A stretch of 64,000 bases of DNA. It comes from Thermococcus gammatolerans EJ3 (GTDB lineage: Archaea; Methanobacteriota_B; Thermococci; Thermococcales; Thermococcaceae). The position numbers and the translations under genes were made by a program. A model generated the notes under the pieces. It did no database searches. It was not told where the DNA came from and was given only the letters and a program-made list of their open reading frames with translations. The stretch spans positions 682,001 through 746,000 of the forward strand of contig NC_012804.1 in NCBI RefSeq assembly GCF_000022365.1, given 5' to 3'. Positions 39,392 through 53,835 of the stretch are shown one piece after another (position 1 is the first letter of the stretch; each line of letters begins with the position of its first letter).

Positions 39392-40315
39392 ATGTGGAAG
39401 GACTTCATCAGGGAGAAGGTTGAGGAGATAAGGGAAACCGTCGGCGATGGGAAGGCGATAATAGCGCTCAGCGGTGGTGTTGACAGCTCAACCGCCGCTG
39501 TACTCGCGCACAAAGCTATAGGTGATAGACTTCACGCGGTGTTCGTTAACACGGGCTTCATGCGCAAGGGCGAGCCCGAGTTCGTTGTCAAGACCTTCCG
39601 CGACGAGTTCGGCCTCAACCTGCACTACGTTGACGCGAGCGAGCGCTTTTTCAAGGCTTTGAAGGGCGTTACCGACCCGGAGGAGAAGAGGAAGATAATA
39701 GGTCGCGTTTTCATCGAGGTCTTCGAAGAAATAGCTAAGGAAATCAACGCCGACTTCCTGATTCAGGGAACCATCGCCCCGGACTGGATTGAGAGCAAGG
39801 GGAAGATCAAGAGCCACCACAACGTCGGAGGTCTGCCAGAGAGGCTCAACCTCAAGCTCATTGAACCGCTCCGTGACCTCTACAAGGACGAGGTTCGGGA
39901 GCTGGCGAAGGAGCTCGGCCTTCCCGAGAAGATTTACAACAGAATGCCCTTCCCGGGGCCGGGCCTCGCCGTCAGGGTTCTTGGTGAGGTCACGCCGGAG
40001 AAGATAGCGATAGTCAGGGAAGCAAACGCAATAGTCGAGGAGGAAATCGAGAAGGCCGGGCTCAGACCCTGGCAGGCTTTCGCGGTTCTCCTTGGAGTTA
40101 AAACCGTCGGTGTTCAGGGCGACATAAGGGCCTACAAGGAAACGATAGCGGTTAGGGTCGTTGAGAGCCTCGACGGAATGACTGCTAATGCTATGAACGT
40201 CCCCTTCGAGGTTCTTCAGAGGATAGCCTTCAGGATAACGAGCGAGATTCCCGAGGTCGGGAGAGTCCTCTACGACATCACCAACAAGCCACCCGCTACC
40301 ATAGAGTTCGAGTGA
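39392..40315 (+). CDS. guaA: GMP synthetase, ATP-pyrophosphatase subunit (subunit B)
   Basis: A 307-residue subunit that adenylates XMP and transfers ammonia to give GMP. The PP-loop [10 protein letters not shown] is near residue 30; the dimerisation domain ends PPATIEFE, as in the C-terminal part of bacterial GuaA. I start at the ATG at 39392, after GGTGATG; an ATG 12 bases earlier would use up that site. In most Thermococcales the glutaminase subunit follows closely; here a DUF104/PIN toxin-antitoxin pair comes between. TATA-like AATTTTTAAA is near 39346. Confidence 0.95.
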
Positions 40316-40356
40316 AGGCTTATTTACCTCCGTTTCCAACTTTAAGCGGTGGGAGC

Positions 40357-40566
40357 ATGGGTGAGATTATCGAGGTGATTTACGAGAACGGCGTGCTGAA
40401 GCCCCTCAAGCCCCTCAAGCTGAAGGAGGGGCAGAGGCTCAGGGTAAGGATTTACCACGAGGACTTCCTTGAGCTGGCAAGGGAGATGAGGAAAAGAGTA
40501 ACGCCCGAAAAGTTCAGGGAAGACCCGACGGACTATCTCCTTCGCTTGAGGGAGGAGGAAACATGA
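40357..40566 (+). CDS. antitoxin, AF2212-like (DUF104) family
   Basis: A 69-residue protein starting MGEIIEVIYENGVLKPL with LKEGQRLRVRIY, the typical beta-rich DNA-binding start of DUF104/AF2212-like antitoxins. The C-terminal part is charged and helical and would neutralise the toxin. The ATG at 40357 follows GGTGGG; the longer frame upstream lacks family likeness. Four bases, ATGA, are shared with the PIN-domain toxin gene. It lies 41 bases after the GMP synthetase subunit B gene. Confidence 0.85.
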   Translation: MGEIIEVIYENGVLKPLKPLKLKEGQRLRVRIYHEDFLELAREMRKRVTPEKFREDPTDYLLRLREEET

Positions 40567-41009
40567 AGGTCGTGGTTGACACCTCCGTTGTTTTCCATCT
40601 GTTTTCTAGCTTCTATCCTGAAAGGGCAGAAGTCGCCGAAAGAATCATAGAGTATGCACAGTTAGGCTCGCTTGAGCTTTACGCTCCCCGCTTGGGGGAA
40701 GTTGAGTTCGTTGCTGTTCTCTCAAGGTATTTTGAGCGGGAGCAGGTTGAGAAGGCGCTAACCTACTACAGCGAAATAGTTGCGTGGGTTCCTGAGGAAC
40801 TGCTCATCGAGGAGCTTCGAGAAGTGGCCTTTCAGACGCATCACAAGGCTTCTGATATCTATTTCATTGCGACAGCCCGATACCTTGACGGGGTTCTTGT
40901 TACGAATGACAGGAAGATGGCCGAGCTGGCCAAGTCCCTTGGTTTGAGGGCTTTTTATCTCGTTGAAGAACACGATGCCTTCTTCAAACTCCTGGAGGTG
41001 GGCTCATGA
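40563..41009 (+). CDS. vapC: PIN-domain ribonuclease toxin, VapC family
   Basis: A 148-residue PIN-domain protein with the acidic metal-binding set in place: Asp6 in VVDTS, Glu in GEVEFVA near 45, Asp in [11 protein letters not shown] near 98 and Asp in VTNDRKMAE near 117. Such enzymes cut RNA, often tRNA, when released from their antitoxin. Its gene is sandwiched with four-base overlaps between the DUF104 antitoxin and the GMP synthetase glutaminase gene, so its translation is coupled on both sides. Confidence 0.88.
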
Positions 41010-41686: not shown

Positions 41687-41962
41687 TTGGGACATACGAT
41701 CTACTATAAAACTTCAATCCATCGGTGGGAAGAGTTTCTGAGTTTCATTGGTAGAGTTTGTCAGGGGCTGGGCTATGAAGTGGCACCTGTGGGGGAGTCC
41801 GTCAGTGTATTTCCCACCTGTTCGCTAGTGGAGCCCCTCCTCATTCCGCGAAGTGGGGAGGGCTTCGTAAAAACTAACCTTATTGAACCCTGCCACTCAA
41901 TTTATCTCCTTATCCTTCACTCGGTGTCGTCCTTTGGCTCGGTCTCGGTGTGGGAGGATTGA
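41687..41962 (+). CDS. small protein of unknown function
   Basis: A 91-residue protein starting at a TTG with a well-spaced GGTGAT; a TATA box, CTTTTTAAGG, lies about 35 bases upstream. The sequence has a helical, aromatic start (YYKTSIHRWEEFLSFIGRVC), a short strand region (SVSVFPTC) and a GEGFVKTNLIEPC segment before a hydrophobic helix. I recognise no family with certainty. Its 3' end overlaps the convergent DUF2101-like gene by 46 bases, which is unusual here. Promoter and ribosome site are the best support. Confidence 0.55.
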   Translation: MGHTIYYKTSIHRWEEFLSFIGRVCQGLGYEVAPVGESVSVFPTCSLVEPLLIPRSGEGFVKTNLIEPCHSIYLLILHSVSSFGSVSVWED

Positions 41963-42672
41963 TCTAGGTAGACCTCGATTACTCTGACCGGCACCGAACC
42001 TTTCAAAGTTCTCTCCTCCACCAGTAGCTTCACGACCCTGCCCGGCTCGGCATCAGGAACGGCGGGAACCCAGTACCGTCCCGGCTTGACGTTTGCAGCT
42101 AAATCATCGTTCACGAAGACCCTTATGAGGTCACCTCTTACCTCTTCGACGATCCCGTAGGTGTATTCCCTTCCGTACCGCCCCTTAAAGTACCATCTGA
42201 AGAGCAGAACCACTATCAGAACGCCTATGAGGTAGCCATAGTAGTAGTAAACGCTCGTTGCAAGCTTTCTCAGGAGGAGGTATCCCAGAAAGGAGAGAAA
42301 CGATATCACTGAAATCACGCTGTAAAAGAAGTAGTACGGCTCGGCCTCAACGAAAAAGTTCCAGTTCCTTTTTATCAGGTACCTTAGGTAGGCTATCTCT
42401 CCAATAAACAGAAGGGCAAGGAGATAAGGACTTCTTAAGGTCAGGACTATCAGGAGGGAAAGCAGAAGATAACCCACGAGTACGAGCTGGAGCTTGAGGC
42501 TGAGGAGCTCGTGGACTGTCACTTCTCTCCTCACGAGCCGCCGCAGGATCCTGAATTCCGGTGGTTTAGACTGGGGGGTCGGGCTTACAAGCTCTCTGAT
42601 ACTGTGAACGGCTTTTCTAGAAAACTCCTCTACCGCTTCGCCAATTGAGTAAAAAAGATCCAGGAGAGACAT
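41917..42672 (-). CDS. DUF2101-like membrane protein
   Basis: A 251-residue protein with a short helical N-terminus, about four membrane spans between residues 55 and 160 and a C-terminal beta-rich soluble domain (about 170-240, including a Lys/Arg-Val-Ile pattern GSVPVRVIEVY). The layout fits the DUF2101 family of Thermococcales; I give that with moderate confidence. The ATG follows GGTGATC. It starts nine bases after the large DUF2341 surface protein gene and so is probably the last gene of the pilin operon. Confidence 0.68.
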   Translation of the reverse strand: MSLLDLFYSIGEAVEEFSRKAVHSIRELVSPTPQSKPPEFRILRRLVRREVTVHELLSLKLQLVLVGYLLLSLLIVLTLRSPYLLALLFIGEIAYLRYLIKRNWNFFVEAEPYYFFYSVISVISFLSFLGYLLLRKLATSVYYYYGYLIGVLIVVLLFRWYFKGRYGREYTYGIVEEVRGDLIRVFVNDDLAANVKPGRYWVPAVPDAEPGRVVKLLVEERTLKGSVPVRVIEVYLDQSSHTETEPKDDTE

Positions 42673-42681
42673 TTGATCACC

Positions 42682-45072
42682 TCACGGACAGGTGTAGCCG
42701 TAGAGAAGGTCACACGTCCCCTGTGGCCCTAAGATCTCCTCGCTGGTCTGAGGATCCAGGAAGAACGGTATTTCTTCGAGGTTGCTTGTTCCTATTGTCC
42801 CCTCTGAGACACCCCATACACGATATCCCTGAACCTTGGTTCCGTCTCCGAAGTAATAGTTGAGGAAGTAGTAGTCGGTGCTGGATTGCCCCTCTTCCAC
42901 TGAAATTCCGAGGGTGAGGAACAGATTGAAGAGCTTCCTGTCGTAGGTGGGATCAGGTATCATGAAGCTCACCAGTCCAATGGGGTAGTACTGGTTTCCA
43001 TATTTGTAACCCATCTCATCCTGCATCTGATGGGAAAGTGTAACGTAAGCGGCGTGATTGGCGTCGCTTCCCTCGAGCCTCTCGAAGAAGGACCACCCGT
43101 TTTCGGTGGCTATGTACCTCTGGTCCAGGATGCAGTTGAGAAGGGGCTGTATGTCGTAAACGGTTGCGTTGCTCGATGACGGCGCGGATGTGGAGGGAGC
43201 CGGCTTGGACTCTATGATCTGACTCAGCGTCGTGGTCTGCCAGTAAAGGGTTATTCCATTGAAATGGGGATCCTCAAGCAGATCGGTGGAGGTATCGTAC
43301 TTGCGGACTGCTATCCACTGGTAGTCTGTCTTTCTGTACCAGAACTCACTGTCGGTTACTGCGTAAACGTATGCCAGGGGTTCAGTCCATGTCCTGTAGT
43401 AGTTATCGTTGTTGACCCTCCCCTCTGTTATATCCTTGAATTTGGAATCCTTGGAAGTTGTGGAGTACGGTTTCATAAGGGCCTCGTAGACGTGGAATGT
43501 GTCTATTGGATCCCTCCCCCCGATCTCCGAAAGATATACCCACCAGGGTCTGTGGATCGCAAGGCCGTCGTCGCTCCAGGTTCCATCATCCGTAAACAGG
43601 AGCATTCTGCCGCTTGAGTCCTCAACACCAACGCCGGAATCCCAGTCATAATAGTTCCTCTCTGCCCTCATCCTGAACCTGACGGCAAAGCCTCCGTAGA
43701 GATCGAGGGAGTTCTGGTTCAGTTTGATCTCAACCTCATTTCCGCCGTCGATTGTCAGAGAGTCCTCAAAAAATTCAAACACGGCGTTTCCGTCTCCCTT
43801 AGTTGGCGCGGTTTCGTTGCCGAAGTACATCTCCACCGTCACGCGGCCGTTGACCGGAATCGATAGCCTGAGCCACACCAAGGCTGTTTCCGTCGTTGGA
43901 TCCCAATACTCTATCCAGAACGGAACTGGATTGCAGTTTGTGTCGTAGAAGGCTATGGAGGCGTTTGTTTGGTATGGGTCTCCTAAGTACGTGTTCTGAG
44001 TGTTCTGGAAGATGAAGTCCAGCATCTGGGTTGTGAAGCCCTTGGCGGTGCTTATCAGGAGGGGAATCTGGTAGTCGTTGAGGTCTATTCCCACGTTGTT
44101 CTCGATGGTCAGGTTTATACGATAGCCTAGGATGGAGCACCATCCCGATGGAAGTCCCGTTCCGGTTCCGGAGGAGGTAACGTTGCCAAATTTAAGGATT
44201 CCAACGTCTCCGCTGTTAAGGATGACGTCCCTTGTCGTTGTGGGGATTCCGTCAACTGTCAGGTTAGAGACGTGGTCGCCGGAGGAGTCCCATATGTCCG
44301 TTAGGTTGTACTGAAAGTCCGTTCCAAAGTAGCCAATGACCGTGGATGATGTGCCAACTCCGGTGCCGTTGGCTATGGTGAGGGGTCTTGATCCAAGCTC
44401 GGGGTAGGCGTAGGGGCAGGCTCTTAGAGACCTCTGGTACCTTCCTCCAGTCATCGCCGAGAATATTGGGTCCTCCAGATCGCGAATGTCAACGGTTGAG
44501 TACACGTATCCGCCGGTTGAGGGTATCGGTCCGTCGTAGACTACGAGACCAGATGAATCGGTAATCCTCACCCTGGGTATGCGAGCCTTGATAACAACTG
44601 TAAACGCGTCGAGGGGAGCCACAGTTATTTCCGTGGAACTGACGATATCGCTTATTGAGGGGTAGATGCTGTAACCCTGATCCTGAAGAAGTTTGCTCAC
44701 GTTTGAAAGCCATGTTTTGAGGGTTTGACCGCCCATAACGCGAAGTGTATCGTATCCAGTAACCGCGGGTGAGGTTCCGCTCTTTATGAAATCGCGGATG
44801 GTGTTGTTCGCCTTGTATGTTGGACTTATGAAGTTGCCAGTAACGGCCACGTAATCGACCGCGGCAACAACGGCCCTCTTTCCTGACAGCTCTAACGCCT
44901 TCTGGAATTCGAGATTCAGGAAGTTGATGACATCGTATGTCCTCCCAAACTGGGTTCTCTCGCTCTGGGCCTTGATTATCGAGGAGGAAACGTCCTCGTA
45001 AGTAGCCAGAAGAAGGAGGAGGGGAATAAGGAGCACAATGACGGCCGAATTGAGAAGGAAGCCCCGCCTCAT
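42682..45072 (-). CDS. large secreted surface protein with DUF2341 domain and pilin-like leader
   Basis: A 796-residue protein that opens MRRGFLLNSAVIVLLIPLLLLL, a short basic start and one hydrophobic helix as in archaeal pilin-like or signal-anchor proteins. The middle (about 315-460) fits DUF2341: YRINLTIENNVGIDLNDYQIPLLIS, then VWLRLSIPVNGRVTVEMYFGN. Asn/Thr/Ser-rich composition and aromatic content fit an extracellular beta-sandwich protein. I start at the ATG at 45072 after GGAGGG; it shares a base with the upstream stop. It is probably an adhesin or filament-associated protein of this operon. Confidence 0.75.
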   Translation of the reverse strand: MRRGFLLNSAVIVLLIPLLLLLATYEDVSSSIIKAQSERTQFGRTYDVINFLNLEFQKALELSGKRAVVAAVDYVAVTGNFISPTYKANNTIRDFIKSGTSPAVTGYDTLRVMGGQTLKTWLSNVSKLLQDQGYSIYPSISDIVSSTEITVAPLDAFTVVIKARIPRVRITDSSGLVVYDGPIPSTGGYVYSTVDIRDLEDPIFSAMTGGRYQRSLRACPYAYPELGSRPLTIANGTGVGTSSTVIGYFGTDFQYNLTDIWDSSGDHVSNLTVDGIPTTTRDVILNSGDVGILKFGNVTSSGTGTGLPSGWCSILGYRINLTIENNVGIDLNDYQIPLLISTAKGFTTQMLDFIFQNTQNTYLGDPYQTNASIAFYDTNCNPVPFWIEYWDPTTETALVWLRLSIPVNGRVTVEMYFGNETAPTKGDGNAVFEFFEDSLTIDGGNEVEIKLNQNSLDLYGGFAVRFRMRAERNYYDWDSGVGVEDSSGRMLLFTDDGTWSDDGLAIHRPWWVYLSEIGGRDPIDTFHVYEALMKPYSTTSKDSKFKDITEGRVNNDNYYRTWTEPLAYVYAVTDSEFWYRKTDYQWIAVRKYDTSTDLLEDPHFNGITLYWQTTTLSQIIESKPAPSTSAPSSSNATVYDIQPLLNCILDQRYIATENGWSFFERLEGSDANHAAYVTLSHQMQDEMGYKYGNQYYPIGLVSFMIPDPTYDRKLFNLFLTLGISVEEGQSSTDYYFLNYYFGDGTKVQGYRVWGVSEGTIGTSNLEEIPFFLDPQTSEEILGPQGTCDLLYGYTCP

Positions 45073-47180
45073 CAGCCTTCCCTCCACACGCGTAGGGTTA
45101 TCTGAATCGGTTTGAAGAGACCTGGAATATTCCCCATTGATGCGACCTCAATCTGAACCGTTGAGGGCAGCTCAACGAGGATCGGGTTGCTCTGTGTGCC
45201 ATCACCGCCGAGGTTGTTGAACAGTCTTACTATTGCGTCGTCAACGGCGTACGTGTTTCTTCCGTCGAGAAGATCCTGTGCGGTTAGATCGCAGTAGGGT
45301 TCCTCTCCAGCTAATATATGATGTGGGGAGTTGTCCCCCACCCAGTAGTATGTGATATTGTATCCGTTGCACCCATCGCGGATGTACTTGGGGAAGACAT
45401 CTCCGTAGCCTGCATAGGCCTGGATTACATATGTGAGCTCTCCGTTTCCGTTTTTTGGTTGCAGCCAGTACCCATATCCTAGTGATATTGTAAGTTTGTT
45501 AAACCCCTTGGATATTGCATTTGGCAGTGGTCTGTATCTCCAATCGAACGTATCTTTGGTATATCCCACCCTTGCTAGGGCGTAGATGAAGGGGCTTGAA
45601 GGATTGCAACCTCCCCCGTGGCAGTGAATATAAGTGGGTGATATCTCGTCATTATCGATCTGTATTTTCTGATACGGGTCGTAGCCGGTGTAATAGAGCC
45701 AAGGAAATTGGAACTTTGCCCAAAGGGGAGTTGCACCAGAGGGCACTCTGAACTGTATGGTGAGGTAGCTGGTCCAGTCGGAGCGTGGCATTGGTATTGG
45801 CTCGGTAATGTCTATTGTGTAGGCTGTGAGAAGAACCTCAGAGCGATAATCAGCCTCTACAAAGGAGTTGTCCCCGATCAGGTGTATTCTTGGGGAGTAC
45901 TCTGTATCGCTCTCTCCAGCTTGGACAATGATAGTTGTATACCTACTAGATATCTGATTGTAGTTGTAGCCCTCATGTGCCAGTGTAGTTGAAATCGTGG
46001 AGTTGGTCCAGTAGCAGGTTTTCGTTTTACTTGCTTGGTCGTAGGTACACCTCGTTGCTGGAATCTTTATTTCTCTATCAAACATGAAGGAAAGGGTTAT
46101 GGGAGTGCCTGAGGATATGTTGCCTACAGAGATCTGCACGCTGAGAGACTTCAGTAATCCTGGCACGAACAGGTACTTCCATGCGGTTATCCCGTACCTT
46201 GCACTTACATCTTCAAAGTGGAATTTCTGCGGGAACCTTAATGTGGAGGGTTTTGAAGTCTGGTACTTTATCCTTATGTACTGGGCCCCATCTTCTCCAC
46301 CATCATACCAAGACTTGTAGACCCTAACCTCAAATGTGTTCCTCTCTCCCGGTTTGAAGTTTTCTATTAGCCTAAGTCCTCCACTAGGATCCGTATCGGT
46401 TAGAAGGCGGTTGTTGTCAACGTATCCTGACCAGATCTTATTCCCATTCAGATACACCTCGTACTCTGATCCGACCCACGCTGGCTCTAGGAACCAGTCT
46501 ATTTCCTCTATTGTGGCGTCGGGTGGGATTGCACCTGCGGGCACTGTATACTTGATAATAACTTCATCGTCTGAACTATACGTCTTAGCGTAGATGTAAC
46601 CACCTCTTATTATATATGTATTCTCTTTACTTCCCAGCTTTGTTAGATATGCCCTCGCCATGTATCCCCTCGGCGTCTGGTTGTAGGCATAGCCGCTCAT
46701 TATCAGGGTCGCGGGGGAGACATCGGGTGCTCTTGAGTAGTTTGATCCGAGCTTTCTCAGGTAGGGACTAGTGTAGTTGTTGATGAGGAGCTCGTAGTTG
46801 TACCTCTGAAGTGTCTTGTTGAGGATGTACCCGAGTATAACCTCGGCCTTGTGCCTCAAGTTTGCGGAGGGATATATCGGAGCGGTCGCCCAGTACGTTG
46901 AAACTATGTCCAGTGGACTCATATCCGGATTGACAAGGCTCAGGTTCAGGGTTCCGTTCTGAATCCACCCCTGAATAACGCCCGGATCAACGAGTTCGTT
47001 GAGGGGTACTGTTCTGAGAGTTAGAAGGGTGCTTGAGGCCAGCTCCTTTGACTGGGACCTCATGTAGGTGGAGTAAACCTTTGAGCTGTTTTCGGTAACG
47101 GCGACTATCCCCGTGATGAATAGGGTGACGAGTATGAGCGATAGCAAAGCGTCAAGCGTGAACACGAAACCTCGCCTCAT
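45072..47180 (-). CDS. large secreted surface protein with pilin-like leader
   Basis: A 702-residue protein that opens MRRGFVFTLDALLSLILVTLF: a basic tip, an acidic residue a few positions into the hydrophobic helix, as in type IV pilin-like leaders. The rest is Ser/Thr/Tyr/Asn-rich beta sequence without a domain I can name; repeated VPAGAIPPDAT and VPSGATPLWA strands hint at jelly-roll modules. The ATG at 47180 lies two bases after the upstream stop. Base composition is more AT-rich than the core genes around it, which fits a fast-changing surface protein. Confidence 0.72.
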   Translation of the reverse strand: MRRGFVFTLDALLSLILVTLFITGIVAVTENSSKVYSTYMRSQSKELASSTLLTLRTVPLNELVDPGVIQGWIQNGTLNLSLVNPDMSPLDIVSTYWATAPIYPSANLRHKAEVILGYILNKTLQRYNYELLINNYTSPYLRKLGSNYSRAPDVSPATLIMSGYAYNQTPRGYMARAYLTKLGSKENTYIIRGGYIYAKTYSSDDEVIIKYTVPAGAIPPDATIEEIDWFLEPAWVGSEYEVYLNGNKIWSGYVDNNRLLTDTDPSGGLRLIENFKPGERNTFEVRVYKSWYDGGEDGAQYIRIKYQTSKPSTLRFPQKFHFEDVSARYGITAWKYLFVPGLLKSLSVQISVGNISSGTPITLSFMFDREIKIPATRCTYDQASKTKTCYWTNSTISTTLAHEGYNYNQISSRYTTIIVQAGESDTEYSPRIHLIGDNSFVEADYRSEVLLTAYTIDITEPIPMPRSDWTSYLTIQFRVPSGATPLWAKFQFPWLYYTGYDPYQKIQIDNDEISPTYIHCHGGGCNPSSPFIYALARVGYTKDTFDWRYRPLPNAISKGFNKLTISLGYGYWLQPKNGNGELTYVIQAYAGYGDVFPKYIRDGCNGYNITYYWVGDNSPHHILAGEEPYCDLTAQDLLDGRNTYAVDDAIVRLFNNLGGDGTQSNPILVELPSTVQIEVASMGNIPGLFKPIQITLRVWREG

Positions 47181-47182
47181 GG

Positions 47183-48178
47183 TCAATCCCACACGACCAG
47201 TTTTATTATCCCCTCATCGAACTTGGGCTTGAGCAGCCACTTAAGTGACGGGATGATGGTTATTTCAATCTCATTTCGGGCCCAGCCGTTGAGAGAGTAC
47301 AACCATATACCCACAACACTGTTGACGTTATCGCCAATGACATTAGTAAGAGGTATCGAAATTGAGGATGTGTTCCCTGAGTAATTGATCACCGTTCCGT
47401 TCTCGACCAGCGTTGCTGAGAGGGGATTGCCAGTCTCATTACGATAAATGAGGATGGCCTTTAGCCCGGATCCTGCCAGTACTACCAGCGTTAGGTTACC
47501 CGCCACGTCTGGTGCGGTTATCTCCATGTGGGAATTTATTGGGGGCTTCTGGGCGAGTACCCCATAAACGATGGGCTCTTCGGTGGAGGGACCGGCGGAG
47601 AGGTTGTACTCGAAGCGTTCCACGACGAACTTCTTCTGGGACACGTCTATCCAGCTTGACTCATTGAGCGAGCTTGAAATCGTGGTGTAATCTGTTACGA
47701 TAGTCCTGTTCACTATCGCGAAGGAATACGTCGGCTGGTTGAGCTCCACGAATGTTGACGCGAGGGTGTAATTTCCATTAATGGTGGGAAATGTTCCGGC
47801 GAGCTCAAATTTTGATATGTATGTTGACATCATGATGTTCCTACCTAGAGACATGTTCACCAGCGAGCCAAGGACGCTGGGAAGGTTCTCATTCATAACC
47901 ACTATCTTGCGGTAGCTGATGGCAAACGTGTTATTAACGCTCCTCAATCCAATGACCCTGAAAGCGGATGGATTGAGCTCCCAGTCCACGGGATCCCCCG
48001 GGCTCTTTGTTAAAACGTCGAGCATGTTGTCAGCTATGTTCGACCTCTCGTACCAGCCGATCATCGATGTTATCTCGCCTTTCAACGTAGTGGACGTGTT
48101 TATGACCGCCGCGAACACGAACATCATGATTATCAGCGACAGCATCGCATCGAGCGATAGTAGCTGGGCCCTTCTCAC
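47183..48178 (-). CDS. pilin-like-leader surface protein
   Basis: A 331-residue protein that opens MRRAQLLSLDAMLSLIIMMF, with Asp at the fifth residue after Gln, close to the class III (prepilin-type) signal pattern. The exported part is beta-rich with many Asn-X-Thr/Ser sites. The start is the GTG at 48178 after GGTGAG, sharing four bases with the gene before. It is intermediate in size between the pilin-like proteins and the two giants of the same operon, and may be a minor pilin or connector. Confidence 0.72.
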   Translation of the reverse strand: MRRAQLLSLDAMLSLIIMMFVFAAVINTSTTLKGEITSMIGWYERSNIADNMLDVLTKSPGDPVDWELNPSAFRVIGLRSVNNTFAISYRKIVVMNENLPSVLGSLVNMSLGRNIMMSTYISKFELAGTFPTINGNYTLASTFVELNQPTYSFAIVNRTIVTDYTTISSSLNESSWIDVSQKKFVVERFEYNLSAGPSTEEPIVYGVLAQKPPINSHMEITAPDVAGNLTLVVLAGSGLKAILIYRNETGNPLSATLVENGTVINYSGNTSSISIPLTNVIGDNVNSVVGIWLYSLNGWARNEIEITIIPSLKWLLKPKFDEGIIKLVVWD

Positions 48179-48645
48179 GCTCTCACCACCTTCACGGTTA
48201 TGCTCACGGTTTTACCTCCATAGGATAGGGCCCCGTTCACCCGGGAGAATCCCTTTGATTCAAGCCAGTTTTCAATGAACCCGGAGATCGCATTCTCGAC
48301 CTTACTAACCTCGAGCGGCCCCGAGTAAATCACAGTAACGTTGAGGTTTATCGAACTTTCCGTTGAGGAGTCTATGAAAGTCCTGGACACCTTGCACTGA
48401 ATCGATGAGTAGTTTGCCTCCTTTATCACAGCATTGAGTGACGAATAGGCGGGCTCATTGACTTCAACCCCAGTCCCCAGGTACGAGCATGCATTGTCGG
48501 CCGCGTTCTTCACGTGCATCAGCACGACAGTGTCGGTGTTGGTATTCATGTACCCGGGGAGGAGTATTGCAGCGCCGATAAGTATGATCCCTGCTATGAA
48601 AAGAACTTCAAGAGCAGTCTGAGCTTTAGCCCTGGAGGAGGACAT
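48175..48645 (-). CDS. class III signal-peptide pilin-like protein
   Basis: A 156-residue protein with a prepilin leader: a charged tip ending in KA, then QTALEVLFIAGIILIGAAILL, with Gln at +1 and Glu at +5, the signature cut by archaeal prepilin peptidases. Two Cys at about 58 and 90 could form a disulphide. The ATG at 48645 follows GGTGAGATCC. It overlaps the neighbouring pilin-like gene by about 20 bases and shares four bases with the next gene. Confidence 0.82.
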   Translation of the reverse strand: MSSSRAKAQTALEVLFIAGIILIGAAILLPGYMNTNTDTVVLMHVKNAADNACSYLGTGVEVNEPAYSSLNAVIKEANYSSIQCKVSRTFIDSSTESSINLNVTVIYSGPLEVSKVENAISGFIENWLESKGFSRVNGALSYGGKTVSITVKVVRA

Positions 48646-49066
48646 GGATCTCACCCCCAACGTTTTGGGCTGTCACGTTGAAGTCCCTCTCCCCCTGTCC
48701 GAGTGTAATCGAGCTCGTTGCGTAGAGTGGGACCTGCAATCTCTGCGCGACTTTGAATGTCTTACCGCCGAGCGTCGCCGCTATTTCAACCCTGTTCGTC
48801 GTCGAGTTCAGCGTTATGGTTACGCTGTCACCAGCTTTGAGCTCAAAGGGAAGCTCCTTCCTCACCGTGAAGCCGTCGCCAGCGGCATAGACCTGGGTGA
48901 CGGTGTCCCGCAGATCCACTGCGAGGATCTTCAGCTTGGCCGCGCTGTCGAAGGTTCTGGCGTTTGCAGTCTCCCCCGATGCAATGGAAACAATACCAGC
49001 TACCGTAACGGTCACGAGCATTATGGCAATGAGGAAATCAAAGGTTATCTGGGCTTTTCTTTTCAT
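48626..49066 (-). CDS. class III signal-peptide pilin-like protein
   Basis: A 146-residue protein opening MKRKAQITFDFLIAIMLVTVTVAGIV; Gln at +1 and Asp at +5 after the basic tip fit the class III leader. The mature part is beta-rich with few Cys. The ATG at 49066 follows GGTGGGTGAG in the end of the preceding gene. It forms a run of three small pilin-like genes, so these may be alternative or minor subunits of one filament. Confidence 0.82.
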   Translation of the reverse strand: MKRKAQITFDFLIAIMLVTVTVAGIVSIASGETANARTFDSAAKLKILAVDLRDTVTQVYAAGDGFTVRKELPFELKAGDSVTITLNSTTNRVEIAATLGGKTFKVAQRLQVPLYATSSITLGQGERDFNVTAQNVGGEIHVLLQG

Positions 49067-49067
49067 C

Positions 49068-49709
49068 TCACCCACCGGGGTTTATGTTTATCATGAGCTC
49101 GCCGGCGGTCGAGTTGAAGACCCACGAGTTCGGAAGGTCTGGGTTCCACTCTACGACCACTTTGAGGACCTGGGGGATCGTTGATGGATCCAGCCTGAGG
49201 CCGTACACTGTTGTCACTCCAGTGCCAAAATCAACGCTGGCACTCGAACCGCCCCACACCGTTGAGTTTCCCAGGAGATCCCTCTGGTAGAGCGCCCTAG
49301 TCCAGAAGGCGTTCTTGTTTCCCCCCGTCAGGATGACTTTCGTTGTTCCGGTGCCGTTGAGGACCATCACGTACGTTCCGTTCCCATCGTTTAGATGCTG
49401 GCCATAGGTTACGAAGATCATGGGATCTGCAACGCCCCACACTTTCTCTAGGTAGTACGGCTTTCTAAGGTACACGAGCTTTACGTAAACGGTCGTCTTC
49501 GAGCCCGGTCCCTGGGAGTACGCCTGGCTTATGGCTCCGGATATGGTGTTGGCCAGCTCCTTCTCTTCAAGGGCTATCTGTACCCTTAGTGTTTCGATTG
49601 ACTGGGAACCCTGCTGGAACGTCGTGTTTTTGACTGAGTAAGCTAACAGGATGAGCAGGATTGCGAAGATGAACAGGAATTCGAGGGAGATCTGACCCTT
49701 CTTGCCCAT
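49068..49709 (-). CDS. class III signal-peptide pilin-like protein, first gene of the surface operon
   Basis: A 213-residue protein opening MGKKGQISLEFLFIFAILLILLAYS, the textbook archaeal pattern of a basic tip, G|QxSxEF and a hydrophobic helix. The exported part is beta-rich with Asn-X-Thr sites. The ATG at 49709 follows AGAGTGAGG; a TATA-like GTTAAATAGG lies near 49742 on this strand, so the pilin operon has its own promoter and ends at about 41917. No assembly ATPase or platform protein gene is in the window. Confidence 0.85.
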   Translation of the reverse strand: MGKKGQISLEFLFIFAILLILLAYSVKNTTFQQGSQSIETLRVQIALEEKELANTISGAISQAYSQGPGSKTTVYVKLVYLRKPYYLEKVWGVADPMIFVTYGQHLNDGNGTYVMVLNGTGTTKVILTGGNKNAFWTRALYQRDLLGNSTVWGGSSASVDFGTGVTTVYGLRLDPSTIPQVLKVVVEWNPDLPNSWVFNSTAGELMININPGG

Positions 49710-49773
49710 AGCCCTCACTCTGAGTATGTTATGGATTTTGCCTATTTAACGCTTGCTCAACAAAAATATGGGG

Positions 49774-50400
49774 TCATTCCACATCATTGAGGGGTTCGGC
49801 AATGGCAAAGGATTCCCTTCCGATTTTAATCCTCCTGACACCGAAATAATCGTCGTTGAACAGTTTGAACCTGTACCTCTCCGGGTTGAGGTTGTATCTG
49901 CTCAGAAGGGCCCTCATCTCATCGATGAAGAACTGGGTCAGCTGATGGTAGATGAGGTCGCTCTTCTCCCTGGCTCGATCTAAGACCCAGAGCACCAAGG
50001 GCAGTAGTCCCAGCCCTGGGAGGACGAAGTACCACGAGAAGAGCAGTCCGGCGGTGATTGAAAAGATAACGCCGATACCTATAAGTGAAAGGAGGAAGTA
50101 CTTGGCTTTTCTGACGTCCTTGAGCTCCTCGACCTTGGCCTCCCATATGTCTAGAAGGGCTGGGTTGTAGAAATCGAAGGCGGTATGCCTCTTTCCTTTT
50201 CTGATGCGTTCCCTTATCAGGCTGTCCCAATCGTCATGGTAATATACGAGGAAGCCCTTCTTCTGGGCCCTCTCCGCGTCTATTGATGAAATTATCCGCC
50301 TTATGTCCTCCGCGCTCTCGTGGGCTATGTGGGAGTATACCTCCCGCTCATCGAGCTCCAGCGCGACTTCTACCGAATCCCTTATCCCCTCACTCGGCAT
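49774..50400 (-). CDS. two-helix membrane protein translated with CetZ, function unknown
   Basis: A 208-residue protein with a charged, helical N-terminal half (about 1-115), two close membrane spans (about 118-155) and a charged C-terminal tail (about 160-208). Both tails should lie on the same side, probably in the cytoplasm. The ATG at 50400 follows GGTGGTGAG and lies 11 bases before the end of cetZ, so the two are translationally coupled. It could anchor CetZ to the membrane; that is inference from arrangement only. Confidence 0.72.
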   Translation of the reverse strand: MPSEGIRDSVEVALELDEREVYSHIAHESAEDIRRIISSIDAERAQKKGFLVYYHDDWDSLIRERIRKGKRHTAFDFYNPALLDIWEAKVEELKDVRKAKYFLLSLIGIGVIFSITAGLLFSWYFVLPGLGLLPLVLWVLDRAREKSDLIYHQLTQFFIDEMRALLSRYNLNPERYRFKLFNDDYFGVRRIKIGRESFAIAEPLNDVE

Positions 50401-51487
50401 TCTCACCACCGGGGTAGAGATCATCGAAATCAGGAAGGCCTGAAAGCAGTTCCCTCTTCTTCTCCTCTGCTTCTTTCTTTGCCCTCATAAACGAGCTTGC
50501 GTACTCCTTGGCGGTTCTGATGATTCTTTCTATGCTCTCGCTCTCGTAGATGCCACTGAGAAGCGTTACAACCTCAACCTCGCGCGTTCTTGGATCAGGA
50601 TAAAAGCCCCTGAAGATCTGTTTTCCTTTGATTCTGTCTGTGAGCTCGTCAAGGGCCTCGAAGATCTCCTTCGCCTTGAGGACTTCGGGTGGGCCGTGAA
50701 CTGCTACGAGACCGTAAAGGGCTGACTCAACGTTGGCCTCGAGATAAAGCCCCTCACTCTCGAACGACCTGACTATCAGCTTCGAGAGGCTCTTGAGCTG
50801 ATCCGCCCGGGCCTTCGCGTAGCCGACTGTTGCAAAACTTCCAAAGGCTTTGAGGACGAACTTCAGATCGCTTGCGTCGAGGGTCTGCTCCCCAGGAACG
50901 TCAATCAGGGCGAGAAGTGAGGCGATCCTCTCTACGATAGTGTAGTTTATCATCTCGTAGGCCTGGGATATGTCGAGGTCGCCCTCCTTGAGCTTGTTGT
51001 TGTCTATGGCTATTATTGAGTCCGCCACCTTGGAAAGCTTGTCTATCGTGATGGCGGCGTTGATGGTAGGCCGTATACCCTCCTCCTTTAGTGGCAGGGC
51101 TCCGATGGCAACTACCAGTGAATCCGGGTACTCCTCCTTGAGGGCCTCCGCCAAAACCGGCGTTCCGCCCGCTCCGGTTCCACCACCAAAGCCGAAGGTA
51201 AGGAAGAAGATGTCAACGTCCTCGTAGCCGACCATTGAGGAGATCTTCCTCATAACCATCGGAAGGTCTCTCTTCATGGCCTCCCTTCCGAGGACGGGGT
51301 TCGCGTTAACGCCCTTCCCACCGGTTAGGCTCTCCCCTATGAGGATCCTCCTGTCGGAGGGGATGTGCTTGAGATAGTCGAGATCACCCCTGGAAGTGTT
51401 TATCGCCAAAGCCTCAAAATCGACTAAAGAAAAGAGGTCGGCTATCTTGGTTCCGCACTGGCCGACCCCTATGATTATAGCTCTCAC
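50390..51487 (-). CDS. cetZ: tubulin-like GTPase CetZ
   Basis: A 365-residue tubulin/FtsZ-superfamily protein. It opens MRAIIIGVGQCGTKIADLFS and has the tubulin signature GFGGGTGAGGTP near residue 100, with the N-terminal GQCG loop of the CetZ branch rather than FtsZ. The C-terminus ends in a short acidic tail, LPDFDDLYPGGENAE. CetZ proteins polymerise and govern cell shape and motility in haloarchaea; the role in Thermococcales is little known. The start is a GTG after GGTGAGATC. It lies between a secreted toroid protein gene and a membrane protein gene in one operon. Confidence 0.9.
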   Translation of the reverse strand: MRAIIIGVGQCGTKIADLFSLVDFEALAINTSRGDLDYLKHIPSDRRILIGESLTGGKGVNANPVLGREAMKRDLPMVMRKISSMVGYEDVDIFFLTFGFGGGTGAGGTPVLAEALKEEYPDSLVVAIGALPLKEEGIRPTINAAITIDKLSKVADSIIAIDNNKLKEGDLDISQAYEMINYTIVERIASLLALIDVPGEQTLDASDLKFVLKAFGSFATVGYAKARADQLKSLSKLIVRSFESEGLYLEANVESALYGLVAVHGPPEVLKAKEIFEALDELTDRIKGKQIFRGFYPDPRTREVEVVTLLSGIYESESIERIIRTAKEYASSFMRAKKEAEEKKRELLSGLPDFDDLYPGGENAE

Positions 51488-51496
51488 GATCTCACC

Positions 51497-53761
51497 TCAT
51501 CCAACTGTCTCGGCGGTTACCTCGTTGAGCTCTATCTTTCCGTCCCCGTTCCTGTCCTCATAGTGAACCACAACCGCAGGCCCCTGCATGTACTTGACGT
51601 AGCCTATCTTGAACACGAGCTTCGCTATCTCCGAGGAGTCCTCGTCGTAGAGGACGAAGAGCATAACTCCCTTCGCGGTTCTTCCCGGGATCAGGAGAAC
51701 CGTGTCTTGGCGCGGATAAGTGGAGTTTTTGAGCCCTATCTCGTTTCCTGAAATGTCTAGGACTATGTAACGGTTGTAGCGGGAGACGTTTACGTCATCG
51801 AAGCCCGCCAGCACAATGGAGTTCCCCTCCTCCATTAGCGAGAGGGGTCCTAGGTCAAAGCGGTAGCCAAAGGTTTCACGGAGGTAGTTTATGACATCCT
51901 TTGCGTCACTTATCCTATCTTCGGGGCAGACCACGTTGAAAGTTGAGGTTTCAAGGGCGTTTCTAACGTCCGAGAGATCCACCATTGGCATTTTGTTGAA
52001 GCTTGAAAGGTATATCACCGCAAAGGCGGTCTCCAGTGTGTCGTTGGCGATCAATCCGGAATCCCTGGCCTTCTTCACGAAATCGAGGGTCTGCTGGGTG
52101 TAGTCAAAGCCGTAGTGCATGAGCAGGAGAGTTGCCTCGACGGTAAGATCCACGCGGGGCCTTCCTTCGATCTTGGTTCCATTGATATTGGTGTGTTCCT
52201 TCATGTAGGGCCAGCCACCGTCGACCCTCTGGGAGATAAGCCACTTCAGATGAGCCTCGAGTTCCGGTCTGGTCGCTATTGGTTCCAGGGCCTTTAGAAC
52301 GGTGAGCGTGTCAAGGACGTTCACCTCGAGCATGAAAGGATAGAGGCCGCTCTGGTAGTAGAGGCCCCAGCCCGTTGAACTTATCGAGAGGAGCCACTTC
52401 TTGGCGGCAATAACATCGGGGTCGGATCTATTGATCCCAAGGGCCATGAGAGCGCTCAGGGCCATAGCCGTCTCGGCCGGCTGAGGACCGAGGTTCTCGA
52501 CGCCCCACTTTCCAGTGTCCATCTTAACAGACTTTATAACCTCTATCGCGTGTTCCCTCTCACTCTCGTTGAGCCGATTGAAGTGAAGTAGGGTCATGAG
52601 GGCGTAGTAGTAACCAACCGTAAGCCTGCCCTCATTGAGGACTACCCTCTCGTCTTCCTTAAGCCTCTCCTCCGTCCAGTTCAGGGCTTTTTCAACGATA
52701 TCTGGAGCGGGATAGCAGGCTTCTATAGCTATAAGAGCGTAGTACGTTGCCTTCTCGTTGGAGGGGGAGCCGCGGTAGATTCCCCATCCCCCATCTGGGT
52801 TCTGGTAGGATATCAACTGGTCGCAGGGCATCTCATTGGGGTTGATCGTTACCTCCCTTATCGGTGGTACGAGCTCGGAAACTGCGAGGAGAGCGTAGGC
52901 CGTTGGCGTTACAGTATCCGTTACCGAGATAGGATACTTCGGGGTGTCCGCCCAGAAGACCATGTTGGCCCCGGTGTGCTTTATCTGGTCGAGCCTTGCT
53001 ATCGTCGCCACGACTTCGAAAGTTGGCTCCGAGTAGAGGGTCAGGGCATATGTAAGCAGTGCCCTCTGGGCCGGAGAAAGATCGTCTCCGTTGAGTATTT
53101 CTATGAGCTCTTTTACCTCGGACTTGTCAACGGGCTCTCCAACCGCTTTGAAGGCTATGAGTCTCAGGCCGAGGGCGGTGTAATCGTCGATGTACCTCGG
53201 CAGTTCGGGTAGGGATGAGACCGCAGATGAGACCACTGGACTTGATGAGTTGTGGCCGTTCTCTCCCAGGGCCCAGAGCGCCAGAACCGTCGGATAGAAC
53301 ATGGGCGTGCTGTTGGGAATGTAGCCCCATGTATTCCCCGTTTTGGAACTTACCAGGAACTTAACTCCCTTCTTACGGGCGTCATCTACCTTGAAAAGGT
53401 CATCGGTCCCCTCGAAAAACTTCTCCGCCTTTGAGAGGGCTATCAGGGCATAGGAGGTATCGAGAACGTTGCTCACGCTTCCGGGGAAGTAGCCCCAGCC
53501 GCCGTCCGGATTCTGGTAGGAGATCAGTTCCCTAGTGAACTCTCTAACCTTCGGCGTCAGATCCTCGTTTACCCTACCGCTGGCTTCCGCGAGGGCGATG
53601 ATAGTAAGGCTCAGGGTCCTTATCTGCCCACTGCTGTCTCCAAACTTCTTGAGAAAGTTTGCAGAGCCCTCAGTAATGGAAAGGGCTGCAGTGAGGGGAG
53701 CAAAAACGATTACACCGATGAGAATTAGGGGAATAATTTTCAGGGGCCACCTTTTCACCAT
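51497..53761 (-). CDS. secreted alpha/alpha-toroid (prenyltransferase/squalene-oxidase-repeat) protein with C-terminal EF-hand-like loop
   Basis: A 754-residue protein with an N-terminal signal or anchor (IIPLILIGVIVFAPLTAAL) and many helical repeats of the terpenoid-cyclase/protein-prenyltransferase toroid, seen as YQNPDGGWGYFPG near 85 and YQNPDGGWGIYRG near 325 with WGVENLGPQPAETAMAL later. The last 19 residues hold a Ca2+-loop-like DRNGDGKIELNE. No catalytic DxDD of squalene cyclases is seen. The ATG at 53761 follows GGTGTGG. It heads the operon with CetZ ten bases downstream. An extracellular binding or structural role is more likely than cyclase action. Confidence 0.8.
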   Translation of the reverse strand: MVKRWPLKIIPLILIGVIVFAPLTAALSITEGSANFLKKFGDSSGQIRTLSLTIIALAEASGRVNEDLTPKVREFTRELISYQNPDGGWGYFPGSVSNVLDTSYALIALSKAEKFFEGTDDLFKVDDARKKGVKFLVSSKTGNTWGYIPNSTPMFYPTVLALWALGENGHNSSSPVVSSAVSSLPELPRYIDDYTALGLRLIAFKAVGEPVDKSEVKELIEILNGDDLSPAQRALLTYALTLYSEPTFEVVATIARLDQIKHTGANMVFWADTPKYPISVTDTVTPTAYALLAVSELVPPIREVTINPNEMPCDQLISYQNPDGGWGIYRGSPSNEKATYYALIAIEACYPAPDIVEKALNWTEERLKEDERVVLNEGRLTVGYYYALMTLLHFNRLNESEREHAIEVIKSVKMDTGKWGVENLGPQPAETAMALSALMALGINRSDPDVIAAKKWLLSISSTGWGLYYQSGLYPFMLEVNVLDTLTVLKALEPIATRPELEAHLKWLISQRVDGGWPYMKEHTNINGTKIEGRPRVDLTVEATLLLMHYGFDYTQQTLDFVKKARDSGLIANDTLETAFAVIYLSSFNKMPMVDLSDVRNALETSTFNVVCPEDRISDAKDVINYLRETFGYRFDLGPLSLMEEGNSIVLAGFDDVNVSRYNRYIVLDISGNEIGLKNSTYPRQDTVLLIPGRTAKGVMLFVLYDEDSSEIAKLVFKIGYVKYMQGPAVVVHYEDRNGDGKIELNEVTAETVG

Positions 53762-53835
53762 AGTCCACACCTCTAAAATCGCTAAACGGTGGCGGAATAA
53801 ATAAAGTTTTCCTCGGGGCAAAAATTGGAGAGAGT

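Follow-up and report, generated by a model that had tools for sequence, protein, structure and literature searches.

A cetZ and minor-pilin locus conserved across the Thermococcales, with a possible role for CetZ at the base of a type IV pilus

Genes, promoter-like elements and products of the locus

The window analysed here, a stretch of 64,000 nucleotides, lies in the single-contig, 2.05 Mb genome of a member of the Thermococcales (Thermococcus gammatolerans EJ3; G000). Its open reading frames and their Pfam matches outline a block of ten co-directional genes on the minus strand, which runs from 53761 to 41917. The first gene (51497..53761) encodes a secreted double alpha/alpha-toroid protein of 754 aa with a Sec-type signal peptide and matches to the Pfam toroid families SQHop_cyclase, Prenyltrans and TED. 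It is followed after 9 nt by cetZ (50390..51487), encoding a tubulin/FtsZ-superfamily GTPase of 365 aa, and then by the gene of a two-span membrane protein (49774..50424, 216 aa, hydrophobic segments at residues 110-128 and 130-148). As the residues of this last protein are conserved from 16 onward, a shorter version is plausible, with its probable start at Met9 (50400); the overlap with cetZ is 11 nt from this start and 35 nt from the first ATG.

A gap of 55 nt separates the cetZ unit from the pilin unit. The latter opens with three genes for class III pilin-like proteins, located at 49068..49718 (216 aa, or 213 aa from the ATG at 49709; Pfam Class_IIIsignal E=1.2e-6, leader KKGQISLEF), 48626..49075 (149 aa, leader KRKAQITFDF, one N-terminal hydrophobic segment) and 48175..48660 (161 aa, leader RAKAQTALEVLF), the second and third of which have an ortholog in the same place in 40 loci. 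Two large pilin-like proteins of 331 aa (47183..48178, leader MRRAQLLSLDAMLSL) and 706 aa (45072..47192, leader MRRGFVFTLDALLSL) come next, together with an 801-aa protein with a pilin-like leader and a DUF2341 domain (42682..45087, E=8.9e-20). The last gene of the block encodes a DUF2101 membrane protein of 251 aa (41917..42672, Pfam E=2.2e-76).

Each unit is preceded by a conserved promoter-like element on the minus strand, and both elements look like archaeal BRE/TATA promoters. The element 5' of the toroid gene, GGAAAACTTTATTTATT at 53796..53812, is near-identical in most loci and takes the form GGAAAAnnTTTATTTATT across them. The element 5' of the pilin operon, AAGCGTTAAATA at 49743..49754, contains a TTAAATA that is found in 39 of 40 relatives at 33-70 nt ahead of the class III motif, compared with 0.012 occurrences per 100 nt over the full length of these loci; it reads AAnnRTTAAATA in nearly all of them and frequently overlaps the stop codon of the two-span gene. 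The block would thus comprise two transcription units, each with a promoter-like element of its own, which implies that the cetZ and pilin units may be regulated apart. No promoter element was found that the pilin operon has in common with the genes of the motor or of the major pilins.

An earlier note on this DNA had described the gene content as a secreted 754-residue toroid protein, CetZ, a two-span protein, three class III pilin-like proteins and three larger proteins, one with DUF2341. All of these are present as named, with the DUF2101 gene as the one omission from its listing of the block. Its division into two abutting minus-strand operons agrees with the short gap and the TATA-like element in 39 of 40 relatives, and its 11-base overlap of the two-span gene and cetZ applies to the Met9 start but not to the first ATG.

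CetZ scores above the cut-off of both the Tubulin (110 bits, E=1.7e-31) and the CetZ_C (60 bits, E=2e-16) Pfam profiles, while its NCBIfam ftsZ score of 129 bits falls far below the cut-off of 295. Its best PDB sequence matches, 4b46, 4b45 and 3zid, which we take to be CetZ structures, outscore every other FtsZ entry, and by this measure the window protein appears nearer to CetZ than to FtsZ. Identity across the order is 78-98%, and the C-terminal GLPDFDD motif is invariant in the 13 sequences aligned in full. The Thermococcales proteins form the deepest CetZ branch (PMC9856176).

The two-span protein consists of a cytosolic block, of which residues 16-102 are nearly invariant among relatives, a hydrophobic hairpin and a C-terminal part that contains strands. 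A fold search of the PDB with its structural model (mean pLDDT 77.5) gave no match at E <= 0.001, the best having an E of 0.35. Outside the Thermococcales, weak matches to the C-terminal part alone (E ~2e-4) occur in two genomes (G096 and G113) which have no CetZ, and in which the matching genes lie away from any pilus gene; these were not accepted as members of the family. Proteins from two other families of the class, encoded in genomes without CetZ, resemble the C-terminal half (L057:6135-6836 and L058:10639-11379).

The AlphaFold model of the toroid protein (mean pLDDT 87.8) is helical over residues 29-605 and rich in strands in its C-terminal part. Squalene-hopene cyclase is the nearest PDB fold (best Foldseek match 3sqc), with the complement TED about equally good. 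The DxDDTA cyclase signature and a GCGEQ-type thioester motif are each found in 0 of 39 toroid homologues, DxDD is found in 2 of the 39, and the alignment of homologues has no invariant Asp. Cyclase and thioester functions were rejected because the motifs are missing in the homologues, and we infer that the protein is non-enzymatic. Its C-terminus (51497-51560) reads EDRNGDGKIELNE, which is similar to an EF-hand or dockerin calcium loop and partly conserved.

The three large proteins (42682-48178) exist as length alleles that are scattered over the tree of cetZ and the two-span gene. The 331-aa protein of the window is a short allele, as its relatives range from 342 to 818 aa, and it is missing a stretch of ~145 aa found in 480-aa relatives. 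An 850-878 aa protein in the middle position is paired with a 361-374 aa protein in the DUF2341 position at four separate places in the tree (L007, L025, L027, L028+L042), and at each of them both genes have changed; the alleles of L041 are intermediate (811/720 aa). This pattern suggests that the two proteins may act together at the tip of the fibre and are swapped as a pair. The 366-367 aa and 485 aa alleles gave no match to DUF2341. In its long forms (L004:9590-11695, L007:8367-10823), the first large pilin-like protein matches bactofilin weakly and below threshold (E 3e-4 to 8e-4).

Conservation across the Thermococcales

The locus was surveyed in 94 Thermococcales genomes from six genera, with gene order read in 40 regions and then in 14 more. 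Of the 94 genomes, 89 have cetZ, and these also have the two-span gene; the toroid gene was detected in 90. cetZ and its two-span neighbour are missing only from five fragmented assemblies (G052, G056, G061, G063, G088), which do not cover the region and were not counted as losses. Apart from single-gene exceptions, the order of toroid, cetZ, two-span, three class III pilin, two large pilin-like and DUF2341 genes is fixed in 54 of 54 regions. DUF2101 nearly always follows in these regions. Of the 76 genomes in which a single contig holds both it and cetZ, 75 have it on the strand of cetZ at a distance of 7.2-10.1 kb downstream. The two-span gene adjoins cetZ wherever the 3' side of cetZ is assembled, and among the 94 genomes searched, none with a good assembly has cetZ and the pilin operon at distant sites.

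Two exceptions concern the ends of the block. In the sister genomes G019 and G072 the toroid gene has been deleted in place; cetZ, the two-span gene and the pilins stay, and the promoter-like element of the toroid gene is retained, now directly before cetZ. The toroid protein is therefore dispensable. In G008 (genus g3), DUF2101 alone has been relocated by ~35 kb and lies on the opposite strand (L065:6242-6970), for which reason it was rejected as an obligate member of the block.

The flanks are well conserved: of the 40 regions, 37 keep tyw1 upstream and 34 keep guaA downstream, and some of the synteny must accordingly reflect a stable chromosomal backbone. Breaks in synteny in the 40 regions fall at both flanks, never between the cetZ and pilin units, and on the far side of tyw1 none of the 40 shares the adjacent genes over the ~1.6 kb covered. 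The arrangement of the block is not due to chance. Between two GMP synthase subunit genes lies an antitoxin-like and PIN-domain pair (40312-41009) which, being present in only 16 of 40 relatives, seems to have been inserted or lost more than once.

Median pairwise identity falls from 86% in CetZ to 58% in the two-span protein, and stands at 34-48% in the pilins, 38% in the toroid protein and 31-39% in the large pilin-like proteins, a gradient consistent with a cytosolic core and a surface-exposed rim.

The pilus motor, the archaellum and the possible role of CetZ

The combination of pilins with class III signal peptides and DUF2341 proteins is that of clade 1 type IV pili, and a DUF2341 domain in a large pilus-associated protein is the mark of a putative PilY-like tip adhesin. 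No ATPase or TadC gene lies inside the block, and in this respect it differs from a clade 1 pilus system encoded at a single locus. A clade 1 operon with two TadC genes (T2SSF), an ATPase gene (T2SSE) bearing an intein and the gene of a DUF515 protein is found at 184.7-192.9 kb of the source genome, ~540 kb from the block; in relatives, likewise, the ATPase gene is not linked to cetZ. Further loci encode short class III proteins with the size of major pilins, so the system is split three ways into motor, candidate major pilins and the block, which we read as a satellite of the distant ATPase/TadC system. The intein of the ATPase (L053:10738-14370; G000:C1:186740-190369) covers residues ~525-1045 with splicing and LAGLIDADG domains, and occurs in some but not all relatives.

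All 94 genomes have the motor ATPase of clade 1, while 20 of them have no archaellum ATPase. Six of these 20 are single-contig assemblies (G017, G019, G026, G031, G073, G087), and all six retain the locus, G019 lacking only the toroid gene. The locus therefore tracks the pilus rather than the archaellum.

We therefore interpret the block as the minor-pilin and tip-adhesin locus of a clade 1 archaeal type IV pilus, into which a CetZ module has been incorporated. That this module positions or braces the base of the pilus is put at roughly even odds (about 0.5), and published proposals lean the same way (PMC9856176, PMC4858521). CetZ would polymerise beneath the membrane, where the two-span protein, whose termini would both face the cytosol, would anchor it in the membrane or on the pilus platform, possibly by way of the C-terminal GLPDFDD motif of CetZ. 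The polymer could then position or brace the ATPase/TadC machine encoded elsewhere. Primer and tip of the fibre would be made up of the class III proteins together with the three large pilin-like ones. The secreted toroid would be an accessory, dispensable envelope protein around the fibre. A stronger version, which we hold only tentatively, is that CetZ and the two-span protein constitute a tubulin-type cytoskeleton dedicated to type IV pili, in which the hairpin protein recruits the polymer through the C-terminal motif and so fixes the site of fibre assembly by the separately encoded motor. If this were true, the two-span hairpin would be a previously undescribed CetZ receptor. Against a role at the pilus base count the separate promoter-like elements, the conserved flanks and the position of CetZ genes in other orders; in the papers available, likewise, no function of the clade 1 pilus in Thermococcales was found.

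The main rival to a role at the pilus base is that CetZ and the two-span protein form a general module for cell shape or the envelope, which shares a surface regulon with the pilins and does not act on the pilus. We consider this possible if somewhat unlikely: separate conserved promoter-like elements would suit it, as would the shaping of cells by CetZ1 in Haloferax (PMC9856176, PMC11621097) and the position of CetZ genes in other orders, which lie mostly away from pilus genes, for example in Archaeoglobales and Methanosarcinales (PMC9856176). It is harder to reconcile with two units that are never separated over the whole order, though gene order just outside them changes, and with the independent link of cetZ to pilus genes in Haloferacales and Halobacteriales. 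Inherited backbone synteny without a shared function would account for the conservation of tyw1 and guaA, but as the breaks spare the junction of the two units, genes past the flanks are not shared and the block holds across six genera, we regard this as improbable.

Two further readings assign the locus to other systems. CetZ1 has been implicated in the assembly and positioning of the archaellum in Haloferax volcanii (PMC11621097), and CetZ of the Thermococcales could serve the archaellum likewise; the retention of the locus in the six single-contig genomes without the archaellum ATPase makes this very improbable. Even less credence is given to the toroid being a terpene cyclase or lipid-modifying enzyme whose operon links CetZ to the modification of membrane lipids. 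Its squalene-hopene cyclase domains in Pfam, the Foldseek match to 3sqc and the published name 'squalene cyclase' speak for such an enzyme, while the absent DxDDTA signature, the rarity of DxDD, the missing invariant Asp, the export of the protein and the comparable match to complement TED folds speak against it.

The significance of the locus lies in a single-copy cetZ which, throughout an order, stays with the same membrane gene and the same pilus locus, and this in the genetically tractable genus Thermococcus. It bears on how CetZ attaches to the membrane and on the role of CetZ outside Haloferax, both of which can be tested by deletions. Because the locus survives the loss of the archaellum, it also allows roles in the pilus to be distinguished from roles in the archaellum, a distinction that is difficult in Haloferax.

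Comparison with described systems

The co-location of cetZ and the toroid gene with pilus genes is already published. Makarova 2016 (PMC4858521, crediting Szabo 2007) reports that most Thermococci have an FtsZ-family GTPase and a squalene cyclase in their clade 1 pilus loci, and suggests that DUF2341 proteins are tip adhesins. The GTPase arCOG02202, the squalene cyclase-like arCOG03396, the class III pilins and DUF2341 identify these as the same locus. That paper does not settle the role of the GTPase and the cyclase, and promoters, loss of the toroid and independence from the archaellum were not found in its available part. Brown & Duggin 2023 (PMC9856176) report that 15 of 15 cetZ regions of Thermococcales are associated with pilus genes in conserved order and suggest CetZ as a scaffold for type IV systems; the present analysis extends to 94 genomes and adds the two-span partner, a pair of promoter-like elements and checks of the motor locus and the archaellum. 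That the two-span gene is a constant partner of cetZ, that each unit has its own promoter-like element, that the toroid can be lost, that the locus is independent of the archaellum and that the tip alleles are paired was not found in the papers available; supplementary tables may hold some of this.

Against this background, the earlier note's view of one conserved surface locus stands, as all 54 regions have the same gene order but for the single-gene exceptions, and the comparison of cetZ neighbourhoods across the order revealed neither a cetZ without its two-span gene where the 3' side is assembled nor a separation of the two operons. Its statement that no described system has this set of genes is contradicted by the association given in both papers (PMC4858521 and PMC9856176). 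The 'exported scaffold' it proposed is weakened by the loss of the toroid in place in two related genomes which keep cetZ, the two-span gene and the pilins, and the absence from the block of the pilus motor, which is encoded ~540 kb away, had escaped it.

With squalene-hopene cyclases and the complement TED, the toroid protein shares the alpha/alpha-toroid fold and has QxxDGGW repeats; it differs from them as a secreted toroid with neither the catalytic motif of the cyclases nor a thioester. The closest parallel to the locus as a whole is cetZ2 beside the pilB2/pilC2 regulons of Haloferacales and Halobacteriales, where a CetZ gene likewise adjoins a type IV pilus set (PMC9856176). The haloarchaeal locus contains the genes of the ATPase and the platform, and the link there is patchily distributed and apparently mobile (PMC9856176), whereas in the Thermococcales the motor is encoded elsewhere and the link between cetZ and the pilus genes is universal.
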